Under the pieces are notes generated by a model. The model was not told the DNA's origin, did no database searches, and was given only the letters and a program-made list of their open reading frames with translations. Below are positions 22,070-54,853 of a stretch of DNA of 64,000 nucleotides, in pieces (the first letter of the stretch is position 1; every line of letters starts with the position of its first letter). The position numbers and the translations under genes were made by a program. Origin of the DNA: Veillonella caviae (lineage in GTDB: Bacteria > Bacillota > Negativicutes > Veillonellales > Veillonellaceae); NCBI RefSeq assembly GCF_003992125.1, contig NZ_RQUY01000006.1, forward strand, positions 1 to 64,000, written 5' to 3'.

Positions 22070-22471
22070 TTATTTTTTGCAGTCTTTACAAATTCCTGCA
22101 ATTTCTAAATGGTGTTCTGTTACGGTAAACCCTGAGTCGATGAGTTCTTGTGGCATTTCCACAACAGGGCAATGGAGGAGGGGAATCATAGCACCGCATT
22201 CGGTACATACCGCGTAGTGGCGGTGTGTATGCGGTGTAATTTCATAGTATGCTATGTCGCTACCACGGAGTGTTGTTCGCGTTACGAGACCCTTAGTTTC
22301 TAGCATTTCCAAGGTACGATAGATAGTGGACATCCACGTTGTACTGCCAGTCCCTAATTGCTTTGCAATATCGATGGCAGTAATAGGTTTAGTGGATCTT
22401 GTTAAAACAGACCAAATGGCTTCGCGCTGTTTGGTCTTTTTTATGCCTTTTGGCCAATTGGGATGAGACAT
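22070..22471 (-). CDS. zur: Fur-family regulator, probably the zinc regulator Zur
   Basis: This 133-aa repressor has a winged helix (AIDIAKQLGTGSTTWMSTIYR...) and a C-terminal dimer domain with CTECG and CKDC, the structural zinc Cys pairs. The His-rich THRHY segment fits a regulatory metal site. Its place beside znuB, znuC and znuA points to Zur rather than Fur or PerR. I start it at 22471, where AAAGGAAA precedes the ATG; the frame extends upstream to 22528 without a binding site. Confidence 0.85.
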   Translation of the reverse strand: MSHPNWPKGIKKTKQREAIWSVLTRSTKPITAIDIAKQLGTGSTTWMSTIYRTLEMLETKGLVTRTTLRGSDIAYYEITPHTHRHYAVCTECGAMIPLLHCPVVEMPQELIDSGFTVTEHHLEIAGICKDCKK

Positions 22472-22558
22472 TGGTTTCCTTTCTATGATAATGTTACTTC
22501 TTAATGTATGTATTTTCGGTACTGGCATTGAGTGTTACACATCGATTGTGCATTGTAT

Positions 22559-23374
22559 TTATCTAACCCGTAATCGGCTCATGATAATTCGTATATTTTT
22601 AATCACTAATACTACTAACAAGATACCTACTGAGGTGAGTGACACAAAACCACCGGGTGCTACATTGAGGTAGTAGGATCCAAAGAGACCGATGACCATA
22701 GATAGTAAACTAAATCCAATGGAGCATAGTAAGGTGGTGCGAAATCCTTTTTCTAGTTGTAATGCAGAGGCCACTGGTAATGCAATCATAGCGCTCAACA
22801 CGAGGACTCCGACGATTTTGATGGAAATAGAGACAGCTGCTGCCATGAGAATGGCGAAAATATAGTTAATCAAATCCACCTTGACGCCAGCCACGCGGGC
22901 CGCTTCTTCGTCGTAAGCGATATAGAGAAGCGAGTTATATAAGAAATAGAGGGTCAGTATAGATAATACCGTAAGGGCTGCAATGCTAATCATATCGGTC
23001 GCATTTACAGTGAGGATGCTGCCAAAGAGAAATACATTGGCGTTAGCTTTCAGATGACCAGAACTAATCAATGTAATGGCCGTACCGATACTGAGGGATA
23101 AGATGATGGTGAGGATTAAATCGAGATGATGAGAGAAGTATTTTCTAAGAAATTCGATAAGGGCGCCACAGAGAGCAGTAAATAGGAAGGCTCCGATGAT
23201 GGGATTCGTATTTGTCAATAGTCCTAAGGTGATACCTGCTAGTGATGCATGGGACATAGTGTCACCAATCATACTGGATCTGCGGAGGACCATGAAAATA
23301 CCGATGCATGGGCAAATGAGGGAAATACAAATAGCTACAAAGAAGGCATTTTGCATAAAATCGTAATTAAACAT
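22559..23374 (-). CDS. znuB: Zinc ABC transporter permease
   Basis: This 271-aa membrane protein of the ABC-3 family has about eight or nine helices and moves Zn2+ (or Mn2+) across the membrane. Characteristic stretches include GDTMSHASLAGI and GVLVLSAMIALPVASA. I start it at 23374 with AAAGGAGG before the ATG; the start overlaps the end of znuC by 8 bp, so translation is coupled. Confidence 0.92.
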   Translation of the reverse strand: MFNYDFMQNAFFVAICISLICPCIGIFMVLRRSSMIGDTMSHASLAGITLGLLTNTNPIIGAFLFTALCGALIEFLRKYFSHHLDLILTIILSLSIGTAITLISSGHLKANANVFLFGSILTVNATDMISIAALTVLSILTLYFLYNSLLYIAYDEEAARVAGVKVDLINYIFAILMAAAVSISIKIVGVLVLSAMIALPVASALQLEKGFRTTLLCSIGFSLLSMVIGLFGSYYLNVAPGGFVSLTSVGILLVVLVIKNIRIIMSRLRVR

Positions 23375-24152
23375 GGTGCACCTCCTTTGTAGATACAGCA
23401 CTAGTGGGTGTACTGTTTTGGCAGACCTCGTTTGGTCCAGGTGTAGTACGATCTGACACATCAGTAAAGCATGAACAATTTGTATGTTCCGCCGAATTGG
23501 AGCGGTGCATGATTTCCTTCACATATTGTTCTGGCGAGCAAAGATGACCCTGGCCATTGGCAATGTGGTAAATACTTGTGGAGTTAGCGATAGCCATTTC
23601 AAGATTGTGTTCTACGGATAAAATAGCAATGCCGTACTTTATATTTAACTCTTTTAACAGACTATAGATACTTTCTTGGCTTTTTCTGTCAATGCCAGTG
23701 GACGGCTCGTCTAAAATGATGAGGTCTGGTTCACCGATGAGAGCGCGTGCAATAGATATGCGTTGTGCTTGGCCCCCCGATAATTTGCTAATGAGACGAT
23801 TTTTGTAATCTGCCATATTCGTAAGAGCAAGGACTCTGTCCACCTCGTTTTTATCTTTTATATGCAATAATTTGCGGTATGAATCTAGGATTTCTTGTAC
23901 AGTAATAGGAAATCCAGCGTGAGAAAAATCGTTTTTCTGTGATACATAGCGTAAATTATGGGTGCTCTTTGTAATGTGCCCTTTTATAGGTGTTAGGAAC
24001 CCTAGAATGAGGCGCAAGAGGGTGCTTTTACCACAACCGTTATCGCCGACGATGGAAATATAATCACCACGATGGACCGTGAGATTCATATCATTTAAGA
24101 TATACGGCGGTTCATTGTGATAGGAGAAATAAACGTGGTCTACAGTTAACAT
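23367..24152 (-). CDS. znuC: Zinc ABC transporter ATP-binding protein
   Basis: This 261-aa ATPase has Walker A GDNGCGKST (residues 36-44), signature LSGGQAQR and Walker B LIILDEPS. It powers ZnuB. The final 50 residues form a tail with several Cys, Thr and Ser (TNCSCFTD) that is longer than the core ATPase needs; it may bind metal, but this is a guess. First gene of the minus-strand znuC-znuB-zur unit, divergent from znuA. Confidence 0.92.
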   Translation of the reverse strand: MLTVDHVYFSYHNEPPYILNDMNLTVHRGDYISIVGDNGCGKSTLLRLILGFLTPIKGHITKSTHNLRYVSQKNDFSHAGFPITVQEILDSYRKLLHIKDKNEVDRVLALTNMADYKNRLISKLSGGQAQRISIARALIGEPDLIILDEPSTGIDRKSQESIYSLLKELNIKYGIAILSVEHNLEMAIANSTSIYHIANGQGHLCSPEQYVKEIMHRSNSAEHTNCSCFTDVSDRTTPGPNEVCQNSTPTSAVSTKEVHHV

Positions 24153-24168
24153 ACTATACTCTTTCTAA

Positions 24169-24239
24169 TTGACAAAATAATGGTAATGTTTATACTATAA
24201 CTATAATACAAATGCAACTGAGTCGCAAATGCAGTTGCG
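24169..24239. promoter_or_regulatory. Divergent znuA / znuCB promoters with candidate Zur operator
   Basis: Rightward: TTGACA (24169-24174), 16 bp, TATACT (24191-24196). Leftward: TTGCAT (24217-24212), 17 bp, TATAAA (24194-24189). The two -10 boxes overlap. GCAACTG (24214-24220) and CAGTTGC (24232-24238) form an inverted repeat, overlapping CGCAA-N6-TTGCG (24224-24239). These cover the leftward -35 box and lie just downstream of the rightward start, so one bound repressor would shut both. Confidence 0.6.
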
Positions 24240-24268
24240 GTTGTAGTATGTAAAGATAGGAGGTAACT

Positions 24269-25174
24269 ATGGTTAAAAAATTGGTAATGTTAATGATTGG
24301 TGTATTAGTGACTGCATGTCTAGCAGGATGCGGTGCGGATACATCGAAGAATGCAGGTAGTACGAAAGTTCAAGTAGTAACGAGTTTTAATGCCATGACG
24401 GAATTTGTAAAAGCTATTGGCGGTGATAAGGTAGAGGTATCTACAATCATTCCAGATGGTACAGAGCCACATGATTTTGAATTAAAACCGGAGAATATGA
24501 AACAATTAGCTAGTGCTAAAGTATTTGTCATGAATGGTCTTGGTATGGAACCGTGGGCAGAAAAAGCCATTGAGGCGGCAAAGAATAATCAACTTACTAC
24601 AGTTGTTGCTAGTGATGGCGTAGAGGCTATTAAAAATGAGGATCCAGAAGAAATTGAGGAACATGGTGATTACGACCCACACACATGGCTATCTTTAAAA
24701 AATGCAAAGGTAGAGGTTAAAAATATTAAGGATGCCCTTGTGAAAGCAGATCCTAATAATAAGGATTACTACGAAAAAAATTATAATGATTATGTAGCTA
24801 AACTAGATAATATGATTCAAACATATGAATCTCAATTTGCTAGTGTACCACATAAAAATTTTGTTACTGGACATGCTGCATTTGCATACCTTTGTCGTGA
24901 TTTTGGTTTAGCACAAAATAGCGTAGAAGATGTATTCGCTGAAGGGGAACCTAATGCGGCACAATTGGCAGAACTTGTGGCGTATTGCAAAGAGCATAAT
25001 ATTACTACTATCTTTGCCGAAGAGATGGCAAGCCCTGATGTATCTAAAACATTAGCTGATGAAGTAGGGGCAAAAGTAGAAACTATTTATACTATGGAAA
25101 GTAACGAAGATGATAAAACATACCTTGAAAGAATGGATGACAACTTGCGCAAAATTTTGGCAAGTTTAAAATAA
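24269..25174 (+). CDS. znuA: Zinc-binding lipoprotein of the ABC transporter
   Basis: This 301-aa substrate-binding protein (TroA/ZnuA family) is exported and lipid-anchored at Cys21 (lipobox LAGC). Metal-ligand motifs are visible: PHDFELKP, DPHTWLS, TGHAAFAYL and the EEMASPD region. An acidic, His-containing loop before DPHTW (EDPEEIEEHGDYD) is the typical zinc-collecting loop of ZnuA. TAGGAGG precedes the ATG. It is transcribed away from znuC-znuB-zur and should be zinc-repressed. Confidence 0.93.
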   Translation: MVKKLVMLMIGVLVTACLAGCGADTSKNAGSTKVQVVTSFNAMTEFVKAIGGDKVEVSTIIPDGTEPHDFELKPENMKQLASAKVFVMNGLGMEPWAEKAIEAAKNNQLTTVVASDGVEAIKNEDPEEIEEHGDYDPHTWLSLKNAKVEVKNIKDALVKADPNNKDYYEKNYNDYVAKLDNMIQTYESQFASVPHKNFVTGHAAFAYLCRDFGLAQNSVEDVFAEGEPNAAQLAELVAYCKEHNITTIFAEEMASPDVSKTLADEVGAKVETIYTMESNEDDKTYLERMDDNLRKILASLK

Positions 25175-51012: not shown

Positions 51013-51786
51013 TTAAGGGTAGACATATCCTAAGACTGGTTCCGCATTTTTTATTTTCTGTACCTCAATATATGGTTGTTGTCGCCCATGAAAGTTCCGT
51101 GTTGATACGGACCCTTCTATGGTTACCCATTCGTCGTTGGAGATGGTGTCACCATTGTCTTTGTGCATGGTCATGCCGATAGGGGCGACGTCGGCAATAC
51201 AGCAGGACATAGCCATACGGGACACGGTGAATTCATTAGCTTTTAACGTGTTATCGTCGCGATTGACATAGCCTGTCATGTAGAGTTTGTAACCTATATA
51301 TTCTTCTGGATGGGAACCCATAGTAATGATGGTTTGGTAGTAATTGTCGGAGTTTAATACAATTTCTTTTTTTGATTTTGAAATGCCTGGTTCTTTTGCG
51401 GCATTGTTGATAGTGATGACTTCGCTAATATCATCTTGGGAAAAATTAAAATCGTTGCGATCTTCTGTCACAGCGCCAACGCCCTGTACTTGTATGGTGT
51501 TAGGTACGAGAATCGGTGGTACTACTAACAATACGATGGGCAATAGAATAGGTATGATAGATTTCCAAATGTGTTTATATTGTTTTGGCGGCGCCCAGGC
51601 AATAGTGAGAATGCCCATGCACAAGGTGGCGATACCGGCGAGGAGTAAAAATAACTCATATCGAGGCGATACATATAATTTGTATTGATTCGTAACGATG
51701 AGATAGAGAATACAAATTCCTAAGGTGCTATATAAGGCTCCTTTTACAAGACATAATAAATCCTTTGATTTCAGCTCTATTAACAT
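51013..51786 (-). CDS. COG3689/TIGR03943-family protein (DUF1980)
   Basis: This 257-aa protein has three N-terminal membrane helices (about 15-95) and a C-terminal soluble domain with the family motif SRMAMSCCIADVAPIG. The family (B. subtilis YcgQ type) is nearly always encoded with a COG0701 permease and often with a COG0523 GTPase, as here. It is therefore thought to be part of a metal-related membrane complex; no reaction is established. AAGGAG lies 8 nt before the ATG. Last gene of the three-gene cluster. Confidence 0.83.
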   Translation of the reverse strand: MLIELKSKDLLCLVKGALYSTLGICILYLIVTNQYKLYVSPRYELFLLLAGIATLCMGILTIAWAPPKQYKHIWKSIIPILLPIVLLVVPPILVPNTIQVQGVGAVTEDRNDFNFSQDDISEVITINNAAKEPGISKSKKEIVLNSDNYYQTIITMGSHPEEYIGYKLYMTGYVNRDDNTLKANEFTVSRMAMSCCIADVAPIGMTMHKDNGDTISNDEWVTIEGSVSTRNFHGRQQPYIEVQKIKNAEPVLGYVYP

Positions 51787-51898
51787 ATGCTCATCTCCTT
51801 AATTCTTGGGGAACTGAAATATTTATCACTAAAAATAAGGTTTGATAGTATTGGGATGTGTAATATATACATCATATAAACATATTGAGAGTATGTAC

Positions 51899-53464
51899 TC
51901 AATATGGTGAAAATATTTGAAATACTATAATTGTTATAAGTGTAACGATACTAATGGTAAAAGCGAGCCGTCGTGTAAAGGCAGGTCCTATATATTGATT
52001 TAATATATAAGCATTTTTTATATCCATCATAGGCCCAAGTATGAGAAATCCTAGTACCGAAGAAAGGGGGAACAGGTTGGTCAAGGAGCGTCCGATGATA
52101 GCGTCCGATGTGGAGCAAAGGGAGAAGATGAAGGCAAAACCTAATAATAAAATATTATCAGCCCAAATGGGTAGTGCCCAATTTTGGGTTAGAATGAGTG
52201 GTTTTAACCATACTTGGAACATAGCGATAACAAAGGCCGCTATGGAGAAATAAGAGAGTAATTGCAGAAATTCTCTCTCTGTGTGAAATAGAACGAGACG
52301 TTTTTTTGTGCTTACCAAGGCTACACTATTATAGATATAATTGTTTTCATTTACAGAATTATTGTGATTTTTGGTAAAAGTAAATGGGCGAAATTTAAAA
52401 GTAAGCGACACTATGAGGGACACCAATAGACCTAATACTATGCGCCATAGAACGATGCTTTCATCATTAGGAAAGGCATAATAGGTAGCGAGTATGGCAA
52501 TAGGGTTCATAATGGGGCTAGTCAACATAAAAAGCAAGGCTATATGTTGAGGAACACCCTTGTCTAATAAGGCCTTGAACATGGGGATAGTAGCGCAGTC
52601 GCAGACTGGTAAAGCGAGGCCACTACCCATGGCGAGGGCATAGCTTTTACAAGAATTTCCTTGTAAATGGTGCAATATCCAGCGTTCAGGCATGAATAGG
52701 CGAATAGCAGTGGTCACGATGGTGCCTAGCAAGAGGAAGGGGATACCCTCCAATATAAGGCCTAACGTAACAGCTAACACTTGATGATACTCATATGGAA
52801 TGTCATGGCGGCATATGGTGGCTAACAGGATATACGCTGTCAATACAGCGATAATGCTGTATACCGTCCAAGGTAAACGAGGTTTACTTAATATATGGTG
52901 AAGCTCCTTTGCTGTTGGTGTTTGGAAATGACAGCTATCGGTATTGTAGGAAATATTATGCTCTACGTCGTTAGGATTATTGCTAGCATTATTCGGATTG
53001 TTAGGGAATGGTTGTTGATTCCTTACAACTACATCGGCACTGTATAGTTGTGAACGCAATATATCACCCATTCCCGGCAGTAATGTGTTCAGATGATAGT
53101 CGGTAGCGACGAAAATAACTCGCTCTATTCGGCAGTTTTCACTGAGAAGAGGATTGTAGAGAATAGATTCTAGTTGTGGGAATGGTAGTGTGCCGTTCCA
53201 TTCAATCCAAATCTCTTTGGGATGGTGTTGTTCTATATAATTAGCTATCCTCTCCGGTATTGTTATACAATTTACTTCATCGATATTAGTACAATCTATT
53301 TCATTGATACTAAATGACATGATCAAATTTTGTAATGCTGTAGTGCCTTCTTCAAAGGCAAATACTGCAGTGGATGCCATTTTTTGGCGCAAGCGCAATT
53401 GTTCGTTGATGAGGGTGCTTTTACCAGCTCCTAAAAATCCACATACTACATAAATGGGAATCAT
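51899..53464 (-). CDS. Fusion of a CobW-like GTPase domain and a COG0701 permease
   Basis: Residues 1-150 of this 521-aa protein form a CobW/G3E-like P-loop domain (GFLGAGKST at 9-17). It lacks the CxCC motif, and the guanine-specificity motif is degenerate (VVVRNQ). An Asn/Pro-rich linker (about 150-190) leads to a permease of the ArsP_1/DUF318 family (about 195-521, eight or so helices). The permease has LPVCDCAT (Cys288, Cys290) and TSPIMNPIA. Separate GTPase and permease genes are the usual arrangement, so the fusion is unusual. Its own ribosome binding site is weak; its ATG overlaps the stop of a 12-codon leader frame (TATGA). Confidence 0.88.
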   Translation of the reverse strand: MIPIYVVCGFLGAGKSTLINEQLRLRQKMASTAVFAFEEGTTALQNLIMSFSINEIDCTNIDEVNCITIPERIANYIEQHHPKEIWIEWNGTLPFPQLESILYNPLLSENCRIERVIFVATDYHLNTLLPGMGDILRSQLYSADVVVRNQQPFPNNPNNASNNPNDVEHNISYNTDSCHFQTPTAKELHHILSKPRLPWTVYSIIAVLTAYILLATICRHDIPYEYHQVLAVTLGLILEGIPFLLLGTIVTTAIRLFMPERWILHHLQGNSCKSYALAMGSGLALPVCDCATIPMFKALLDKGVPQHIALLFMLTSPIMNPIAILATYYAFPNDESIVLWRIVLGLLVSLIVSLTFKFRPFTFTKNHNNSVNENNYIYNSVALVSTKKRLVLFHTEREFLQLLSYFSIAAFVIAMFQVWLKPLILTQNWALPIWADNILLLGFAFIFSLCSTSDAIIGRSLTNLFPLSSVLGFLILGPMMDIKNAYILNQYIGPAFTRRLAFTISIVTLITIIVFQIFSPY

Positions 53465-53499
53465 AGGAACATCATCTCAACATTCAGTAGTATTGTCAT
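53461..53499 (-). CDS. 12-residue leader frame coupled to the fusion gene
   Basis: An ATG at 53499 behind a strong AGGAGG opens a 12-residue frame (MTILLNVEMMFL). Its TGA overlaps the ATG of the GTPase-permease gene. The fusion gene has only a weak binding site of its own, so it is probably translated by re-initiation after this leader. Confidence 0.45.
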   Translation of the reverse strand: MTILLNVEMMFL

Positions 53500-53571
53500 C
53501 GATATACCTCCTAATGTACATAATCATATAATTAGTAACTAGTAATGATACCTGTTTGAGATAAAAGCGGC

Positions 53572-54438
53572 CTACGAATTACAGACTTCGTTGGCAATGA
53601 GGGGAATATCAAACTCCGTGCCAATCATGATGAGATTGTAATCTGTTAGCGTCGTTGGTGTTATGTGGCAATGATGTGTTGTATATTGCACCTCACGAGG
53701 ACCATCAGTGGTGGGGATAATCCCTTTAGCTCGAAGCACTGTAAAAGGGAGGCCTTTTAGAATAGTGACCCATTGATTTGGTGTTAAGGTGCGTAAATCT
53801 CTAAAGGTATGACTTATAAATGGATTGTCATCGTGCAGGGTAGTTTCATCACAATGATATAGCCGTTTAATATAGTTACGTAAAGAAATAGTATCCCATG
53901 GTTCTTTGTGAATCGGTGTGTGCGGTGCAATGGATTGAATCATGGAAACCGCTAAATCTTGTTGCTGTACATCCTCGATATGGCTGAGGAAAATAGCGTC
54001 ACAATGAGAGATCTGATCCTTGAAAAATGAGCTGAAATTGCGAATTCCTATAGGTGCTTGCATGGTATCTACGATGGTGATAGCTCCTTGAATATAAGCC
54101 TTCTTAGCTATTTCCTCATCTTCACAAGTATGGATGATTTCGCTTAATTTGCTAATTCCTGAAGGTTCGATGTAGATGGTATCTACATTTTGGGTGTTTA
54201 AAATTTCTAATAGTGTATTTTTAAAATTACCTTGTAAACTACAGCAAATACAGCCAGCCGTTACTTCTCGCACGGCTGCGCCGCGCTCTTGTAGTTGCAT
54301 AGCATCTAGACTCGTTTCACCAAAATCATTTTCGATAATCAATACACGGTCATCTGGGCCGTGTTCTTCTAATAGGTGTTGTAAGAATGTTGTTTTACCA
54401 GCCCCTAGAAAACCGGATATAATAACGATAGGAATCAT
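53572..54438 (-). CDS. COG0523 (CobW/G3E-family) GTPase, putative metal chaperone
   Basis: This 288-aa GTPase has Walker A GFLGAGKTT (residues 9-17), the metal-binding GCICC (Cys63, Cys65, Cys66) and EPSG (91-94). The guanine motif is altered to SHIED. Family members deliver or sense Zn2+, Co2+ or related metals, often during metal shortage. It opens the cluster GTPase - GTPase-permease - COG3689. Its first 17 residues closely resemble those of the fusion protein, which suggests a duplication of the GTPase domain. TAGGAGG precedes the ATG. Confidence 0.9.
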   Translation of the reverse strand: MIPIVIISGFLGAGKTTFLQHLLEEHGPDDRVLIIENDFGETSLDAMQLQERGAAVREVTAGCICCSLQGNFKNTLLEILNTQNVDTIYIEPSGISKLSEIIHTCEDEEIAKKAYIQGAITIVDTMQAPIGIRNFSSFFKDQISHCDAIFLSHIEDVQQQDLAVSMIQSIAPHTPIHKEPWDTISLRNYIKRLYHCDETTLHDDNPFISHTFRDLRTLTPNQWVTILKGLPFTVLRAKGIIPTTDGPREVQYTTHHCHITPTTLTDYNLIMIGTEFDIPLIANEVCNS

Positions 54439-54853
54439 AGTATACCTCCTAAAGCAAATAGAATATTTCCATTCATTTTTATATATAAATATTCGTGGGT
54501 CATGTAAAAACAGTATACACCTATAAGCTAACAGATTAAATACATCTATGGGTATATGTATAGTTATGAATATACTGTAGATTTTGTGTAGGCAGAGTAG
54601 AATGTGGAGTGTATTCTATATGTGAGTATAATTTCATACATATTATGGTGTTAGATATTTAATGCGGAAAAGGCGTATGCCCTCATAGTGATATATGAGG
54701 GCATACAGTTTTATGTATAAAATTTACTTTCTTAGAGATGGTAAATTTTATATGTAATTTTTCGAAGCCTATAGGTCCGTCTCAAAATATATTATGCCAT
54801 TCCACTAAAACCAACATTAGGTGTCTATTAAATAAATAGTATGATTGGTTGTA
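54439..54853. other. AT-rich gap with two hairpins between GTPase gene and pepD
   Basis: GTATGCCCTCATA (54675-54687) pairs perfectly with TATGAGGGCATAC (54694-54706) and probably ends the minus-strand pepD transcript. AAAATTTAC (54719-54727) with GTAAATTTT (54741-54749) forms a second, AT-rich stem. No gene is visible, and I found no match to the znu operator. Confidence 0.6.

Follow-up and report, generated by a model that had tools for sequence, protein, structure and literature searches.

Among the closest described systems to the one considered here are the YcgR–YcgQ and ScfA–ScfB pairs, which we take to consist of an ArsP_1 permease and a TIGR03943 protein. The function of these pairs has not been established (PMC5584981). 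In Bacillus anthracis, Zur binding has been shown upstream of BAS1632, which encodes an unfused ArsP_1 permease and lies next to yciC (BAS1633) (PMC6336718). Among the COG0523 GTPases, every member of which is said to carry a CxCC motif (PMC2770081; PMC7895991), YeiR and YjiA favor Zn(II) (PMC7895991). Here we describe a locus of Veillonella caviae in which a GTPase-type domain and a permease of these kinds are joined in one protein. In the 64,000-nucleotide stretch analyzed (the window; assembly GCF_003992125.1, contig NZ_RQUY01000006.1, positions 1–64,000), three minus-strand genes in series (54438 to 51013) encode a soluble CobW-type (COG0523-like) GTPase, a GTPase-permease fusion, and a TIGR03943/DUF1980 protein, as a first-pass annotation of the window had noted and Pfam and NCBIfam searches bear out. 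No paper describing such a fusion was found in the literature searched (subscription papers and InterPro architectures lay outside that search).

The fusion protein (521 aa; 51899–53464, minus strand), delimited by Pfam, full-length relatives, and an AlphaFold2 model, matches cobW (PF02492) at residues 3–149 (2e-8) and ArsP_1 (PF03773) at residues 227–516 (1.8e-46; 159 bits against a gathering cut-off of 32.3). An alignment-based scan, with each species represented by one genome, gave 204 related loci; the best 80, used for gene-order counts, come from Veillonella, Megasphaera, many Clostridia, and metagenome-assembled genomes of Synergistaceae and Anaerolineaceae. A genome scan with a single protein as query returned no match, and a first suggestion that the fusion is restricted to its own order (Veillonellales) was overturned by the alignment-based scan. 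Relatives at nearly all of the best 80 loci are colinear with the fusion over its full length, and the 521-aa open reading frame (ORF) has no internal stop; a frameshift or misassembly that merged two genes is thereby ruled out. Within the order, the fusion occurs in 25 genomes (the window's own possibly counted), mostly at full length, and the gene order is the same in the contexts checked. The first-pass annotation had proposed a search for the same domain order elsewhere: the fusion recurs in several phyla, with the full GTPase–fusion–DUF1980 order at 68 of the 80 loci (the rest being contig edges or loci with one neighbor missing) and a CxCC GTPase directly preceding the fusion at 71.

A G3E/SIMIBI-type P-loop fold is predicted for the fused domain (residues 1–150; 53015–53464, minus strand), the extent of which was drawn from residue invariance, Foldseek, and the profile match to YjiA. 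In the model of the fusion (mean predicted local distance difference test score, pLDDT, 78; predicted template modeling score 0.61), Foldseek matched this domain to YjiA (5.8e-4), HypB (2.4e-3), and UreG (3.3e-3), as well as to the signal recognition particle (SRP) GTPases Ffh and FtsY; several SIMIBI GTPases among these matches act as dimers. A profile of the fused domain matches YjiA at 1.6e-9, although phmmer with the single protein against the PDB gave no match. The window protein has the P-loop GFLGAGKS, E38xG40, and E88-W-N-G91, and thus both the P-loop and the ExxG glutamate of COG0523. Among 100 fused domains tallied, GxxxxGK[ST] is present in all, the fourth P-loop residue often being D, S, Y, or E rather than G, and E[WY]NG in 96 (ExNG, vs. 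ExSG in the free GTPases). K15, E38, G40, E88, N90, and G91 are invariant in all 98 fused proteins compared, and we infer that the nucleotide site is under selection. CxCC occurs in none of the 100 fused domains, the window protein included, and none of the variants listed has NKxD in the corresponding region. Because the published criterion assigns CxCC to all COG0523 members, the fused domain is better called COG0523-related than a member, and loss of the motif suggests that it is not itself a metal carrier. The first-pass description of a GTPase domain without CxCC, fused to a permease in a metal context, is upheld, with strong constraint on the nucleotide site. The weak Pfam score of the domain might hint at joined genes or at a degenerate, non-functional domain, but the recurrence of colinear fusions across several phyla (approximately 80 loci or more), together with this invariance, makes such an artefact extremely improbable.

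The free GTPase (288 aa; 53572–54438, minus strand; Pfam cobW, 3.2e-39) has the P-loop GFLGAGKT, GCICC, and EPSG, whereas its CobW_C match is weak (3e-4, under the cut-off). P-loop, CxCC, and E[PA]SG (ExSG), the combination by which COG0523 is recognized, occur in all 93 free GTPases with a readable P-loop, so that the retention of CxCC noted in the first-pass annotation extends to every relative tallied. Neither NKxD nor [ST]KxD is found as the guanine motif (G4) of the window protein, which reads SHIED (SHIE at the four motif positions); G4 is [S/T][H/R]x[E/D]-like in most of the 93, with NKxD (as NKCD) in about four. Because S[H/R]x[E/D]-like residues replace NKxD, the nucleotide preference of the free GTPase is uncertain, and the weak guanine motif ascribed to the fused domain stands as a description but not as a contrast between the two proteins. 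At two loci (L166 and L191), the ORF for the CxCC-type GTPase that precedes the fusion runs to approximately 505 aa, far above the usual length, possibly owing to an extra domain or to an overcalled start site.

The N-termini of the two GTPase domains had been called near-identical and attributed to domain duplication. The likeness amounts to 13 matches in the first 24–25 or so residues, around the P-loop, and the whole domains share 30 of 146 aligned positions (21%). In a tree of the GTPases, with long branches and treated as unrooted because the HypB outgroup, on a very long branch, landed among the free GTPases, the fused domains group with stand-alone short GTPases opposite all free GTPases (support 100/96), and each side of this branch spans several phyla. 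Recent duplication from the neighboring GTPase is ruled out by the identity and the tree, and on these sequence comparisons the fused domain is an ancient separate lineage.

Five Negativicutes genomes (L238–L242, in G140, G349, G365, G142, and G133) encode the short GTPases (approximately 213 aa) in unfused form, each immediately after a CxCC GTPase; the three tallied lack CxCC, read EVNG, and have a C-terminal transmembrane (TM) helix at about residue 190. A CxCC GTPase with a short CxCC-less partner is apparently an undescribed pair. In Negativicutes outside Veillonellales, the permease and DUF1980 proteins are encoded as an unfused pair, and at one locus (L056) a short GTPase is followed by a gene for a NikA-like substrate-binding protein (SBP) and then by the permease and DUF1980 genes. 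The fused proteins have an extra helix, TM0 (residues 199–218; 52811–52870, minus strand; model helix 199–217 and hydropathy), where the short GTPases have their anchor; by hydropathy, TM0 is missing from several unfused permeases and present in some. This shared position suggests that the GTPase was already anchored in the membrane when it became fused to the permease.

In the permease domain (51917–52786, minus strand), C288, C290, C450, D481, and N484, which include CxC and SxCS sites, are invariant in the 98 sequences. The nearest named families in NCBIfam are SO_0444 (1.9e-11) and SaoE (4.7e-10), neither of which reaches its equivalog cut-off (43.7 vs. 300 bits and 39.2 vs. 325 bits, respectively). 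The DUF1980 protein (257 aa; 51013–51786, minus strand) passes the TIGR03943 cut-off (5.7e-39; 133.8 vs. 88.8 bits), and its model (pLDDT 83.7) has N-terminal TM helices and an OB-fold domain that Foldseek matched to SSB/PriB OB-fold proteins. C195-C196 and D199 are invariant in this domain, and the Cys-Cys pair is plausibly an extracytoplasmic metal site. Ahead of the fusion gene, a leader ORF of 12 codons read from the sequence (MTILLNVEMMFL; 53461–53499, minus strand) lies behind a strong Shine–Dalgarno sequence (AGGAGG), and its TGA overlaps the ATG of the fusion (ATGA), so that it is likely a translational-coupling device; most relatives lack this arrangement, and their GTPase gene directly overlaps or adjoins the fusion gene.

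The first-pass annotation was right to place the locus in a metal setting, and its view that the substrate is unknown can be improved upon, since the linkage of the triplet to zur-znuABC genes in Clostridia points to zinc. ZnuC-like genes occur at 45 of the 80 loci, ZnuB at 43, ZnuA at 39, and a Fur-family regulator at 37, mostly immediately upstream of the triplet and on the same strand; at 37 loci or more, znuB and znuC both lie no more than six genes upstream. At one locus checked, the ZnuA, ABC-3 (ZnuB), and Fur-family assignments hold up in Pfam, and no NCBIfam model reached its cut-off for these genes; the zinc specificity of the ATP-binding cassette (ABC) genes thus rests on family and context. 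Embedding of the triplet in such operons makes zinc its likely, and well-supported, context. The window has its own znuA and znuC-znuB-Fur-family (Zur-like) cluster (22070–25174), separate from the GTPase operon, the counterpart of which is contiguous with that operon in many Clostridia. A Zur-box-like palindrome, ATGCGAATGATACGCATTTGCA, stands upstream of many of the clostridial operons. With a matrix built from clostridial loci, the window left out, the best match in the window is the znuA–znuC intergenic site at 24212–24233 (plus strand; 21.5 bits, the next distinct site scoring 14.2); 60 first-order Markov windows gave best scores averaging 15.1 and reaching 23.4, so that the score by itself is moderate evidence, to which the location adds. 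A small conserved membrane protein of approximately 100 aa with the His/Cys motif HNCVGDTCQIC, for which Pfam gave no match, is encoded near a Fur-family gene and znuA at L194 (1097–1402) and at 22 other loci.

We propose, tentatively and with somewhat less than even confidence, that the three proteins make up a membrane module for zinc starvation, with the tethered domain acting both as a control on the permease and as a dock for the soluble chaperone. The membrane part would consist of the TIGR03943 subunit and the permease with its CxC and SxCS sites, the OB-fold Cys-Cys domain of the former probably lying outside the membrane. Tethered through TM0 and through its fusion to the permease, the G3E domain without CxCC would bind and hydrolyze nucleotide, control the state of the permease, and double as a physical docking site for the soluble CxCC GTPase; the latter would take metal from the permease or bring metal to it. 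Zinc would be the ligand in Veillonella and transport would be inward; a direct energy coupling between GTPase and permease, raised in the first-pass annotation, is put forward as a hypothesis. A possible but unlikely variant, by analogy with SRP and its receptor, is a metal hand-off in which the soluble CxCC GTPase carries zinc and the fused CxCC-less paralogue is its membrane receptor; nucleotide-dependent pairing would then couple transport to chaperone loading, and the receptor in its unfused form would be the TM-anchored short GTPase that five Negativicutes genomes encode.

Several observations weigh against the zinc-starvation module. The named relatives of the permease (SO_0444 for Cu/Zn, SaoE, and ArsP) are exporters, a poor fit to import; G4 is degenerate in both GTPase proteins, making GTP use only putative; and many genomes have the permease and DUF1980 protein without a fused GTPase, so permeases of this family can do without nucleotide coupling. 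Six of the 80 loci lack an adjacent upstream free GTPase, and the matrix found no Zur-box-like site ahead of the GTPase operon, either in the window or in its relatives, which speaks against Zur control there; because the operon instead shares a motif with NikA-like and P1B-ATPase genes, the metal in Veillonella may differ. The permease could be an exporter or exchanger of zinc or of a metal–ligand complex, co-regulated with uptake, for example metalating extracytoplasmic proteins via the OB-fold Cys-Cys subunit or exporting a zincophore, with the fused domain gating it such that export proceeds only with a loaded chaperone. We consider this rather unlikely: the efflux function of the nearest named families (at scores below curated cut-offs) and the invariant Cys-Cys of the partner favor it, but linkage to zur-znuABC uptake genes, expected to be on when zinc is scarce, does not. 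It is also doubtful that the fused domain, by sensing nucleotide or in a structural role, regulates its own permease alone, the free GTPase serving other clients under shared zinc control. Such a separation would suit the six loci just mentioned and the occurrence of permease–DUF1980 pairs and CobW proteins apart from each other, but sits poorly with the CxCC GTPase found right before the fusion at 71 loci and with the unfused pairing in five genomes.

The promoter of the operon bears on whether the Veillonella module has moved to a nickel, cobalt, copper, or general metal-stress regulon. Its candidate operator, ATACCC-N6-GTATTT (54538–54555, minus strand), is kept across the genus: ATACCC-N6-GTAT is present in nine of nine promoters inspected in the main branch and absent from a divergent member (L038). 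The site belongs to a genus-wide motif, ATACCC-N4-GGGTAT in its perfect form, which also precedes, in the same genome, a P1B-ATPase gene (two sites in tandem, 34 bp apart; G000:C17:30463-30516) and a NikA-like SBP gene (G000:C7:98102-98119), and, in relatives, Nik-type ABC permease operons. These shared targets, the presence of a Zur-like box at znuA but none at the GTPase operon, and the NikA-like SBP gene between short GTPase and permease at L056 all favor another metal. Against this, the SBP and P1B specificities are putative and both could concern zinc; a NikR gene was looked for and is absent; and all 15 genomes have a CsoR gene, the two without the motif among them. We regard the shift as improbable. 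The motif resembles CsoR-type operators in shape, and CsoR is a possible but non-discriminating candidate for its reader. Beside the motif, a Fur-box-like sequence, ATGATAATGATTC, precedes the Nik-type ABC permease operon at four loci (L095, L097, L102, and L103). A membrane protein of 262 aa (L133, 6698–7486, and genus relatives) resembles the TM portion of a P1B-ATPase but lacks the catalytic domains and has no Pfam or NCBIfam match; the ATACCC motif lies upstream of related genes in the genus.

The fusion ties together two open questions, namely what use COG0523 proteins make of nucleotide and metal, and which substrates permease pairs of the YcgR/YcgQ (ScfA/ScfB) type transport. A conserved covalent GTPase–permease link in zinc-uptake operons makes the connection between metal GTPases and transporters testable, with K15, E88, N90, C288/C290, and C450 of the fusion and C195-C196 of its partner as test points. 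Like the COG0523/G3E GTPases (YjiA, YeiR, YciC, and CobW), the fused domain has a P-loop, a Walker-B-type glutamate (ExxG), and the predicted fold, with YjiA as its top structural and profile match; unlike them, it lacks CxCC, NKxD, and CobW_C, has ExNG in place of ExSG, and is joined to a membrane permease. YcgR–YcgQ and ScfA–ScfB share the pairing of permease and DUF1980 protein, unfused versions of which occur in related genomes, but have no GTPase domain. BAS1632/BAS1633 of B. anthracis likewise place an ArsP_1 permease beside a COG0523 GTPase, both with Zur boxes bound by Zur (PMC6336718), but as separate proteins and with one GTPase described at that locus. The SO_0444, SaoE, and ArsP permeases have the ArsP_1 fold family in common with the fusion, although the scores fall far under the cut-offs and these permeases lack a nucleotide domain. 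SRP (Ffh) and FtsY, both among the fold matches, offer the analogy of a soluble SIMIBI GTPase with a membrane-bound paralogue; they serve protein targeting, whereas the system in the window would handle metal, its pairing being suggested by that analogy.

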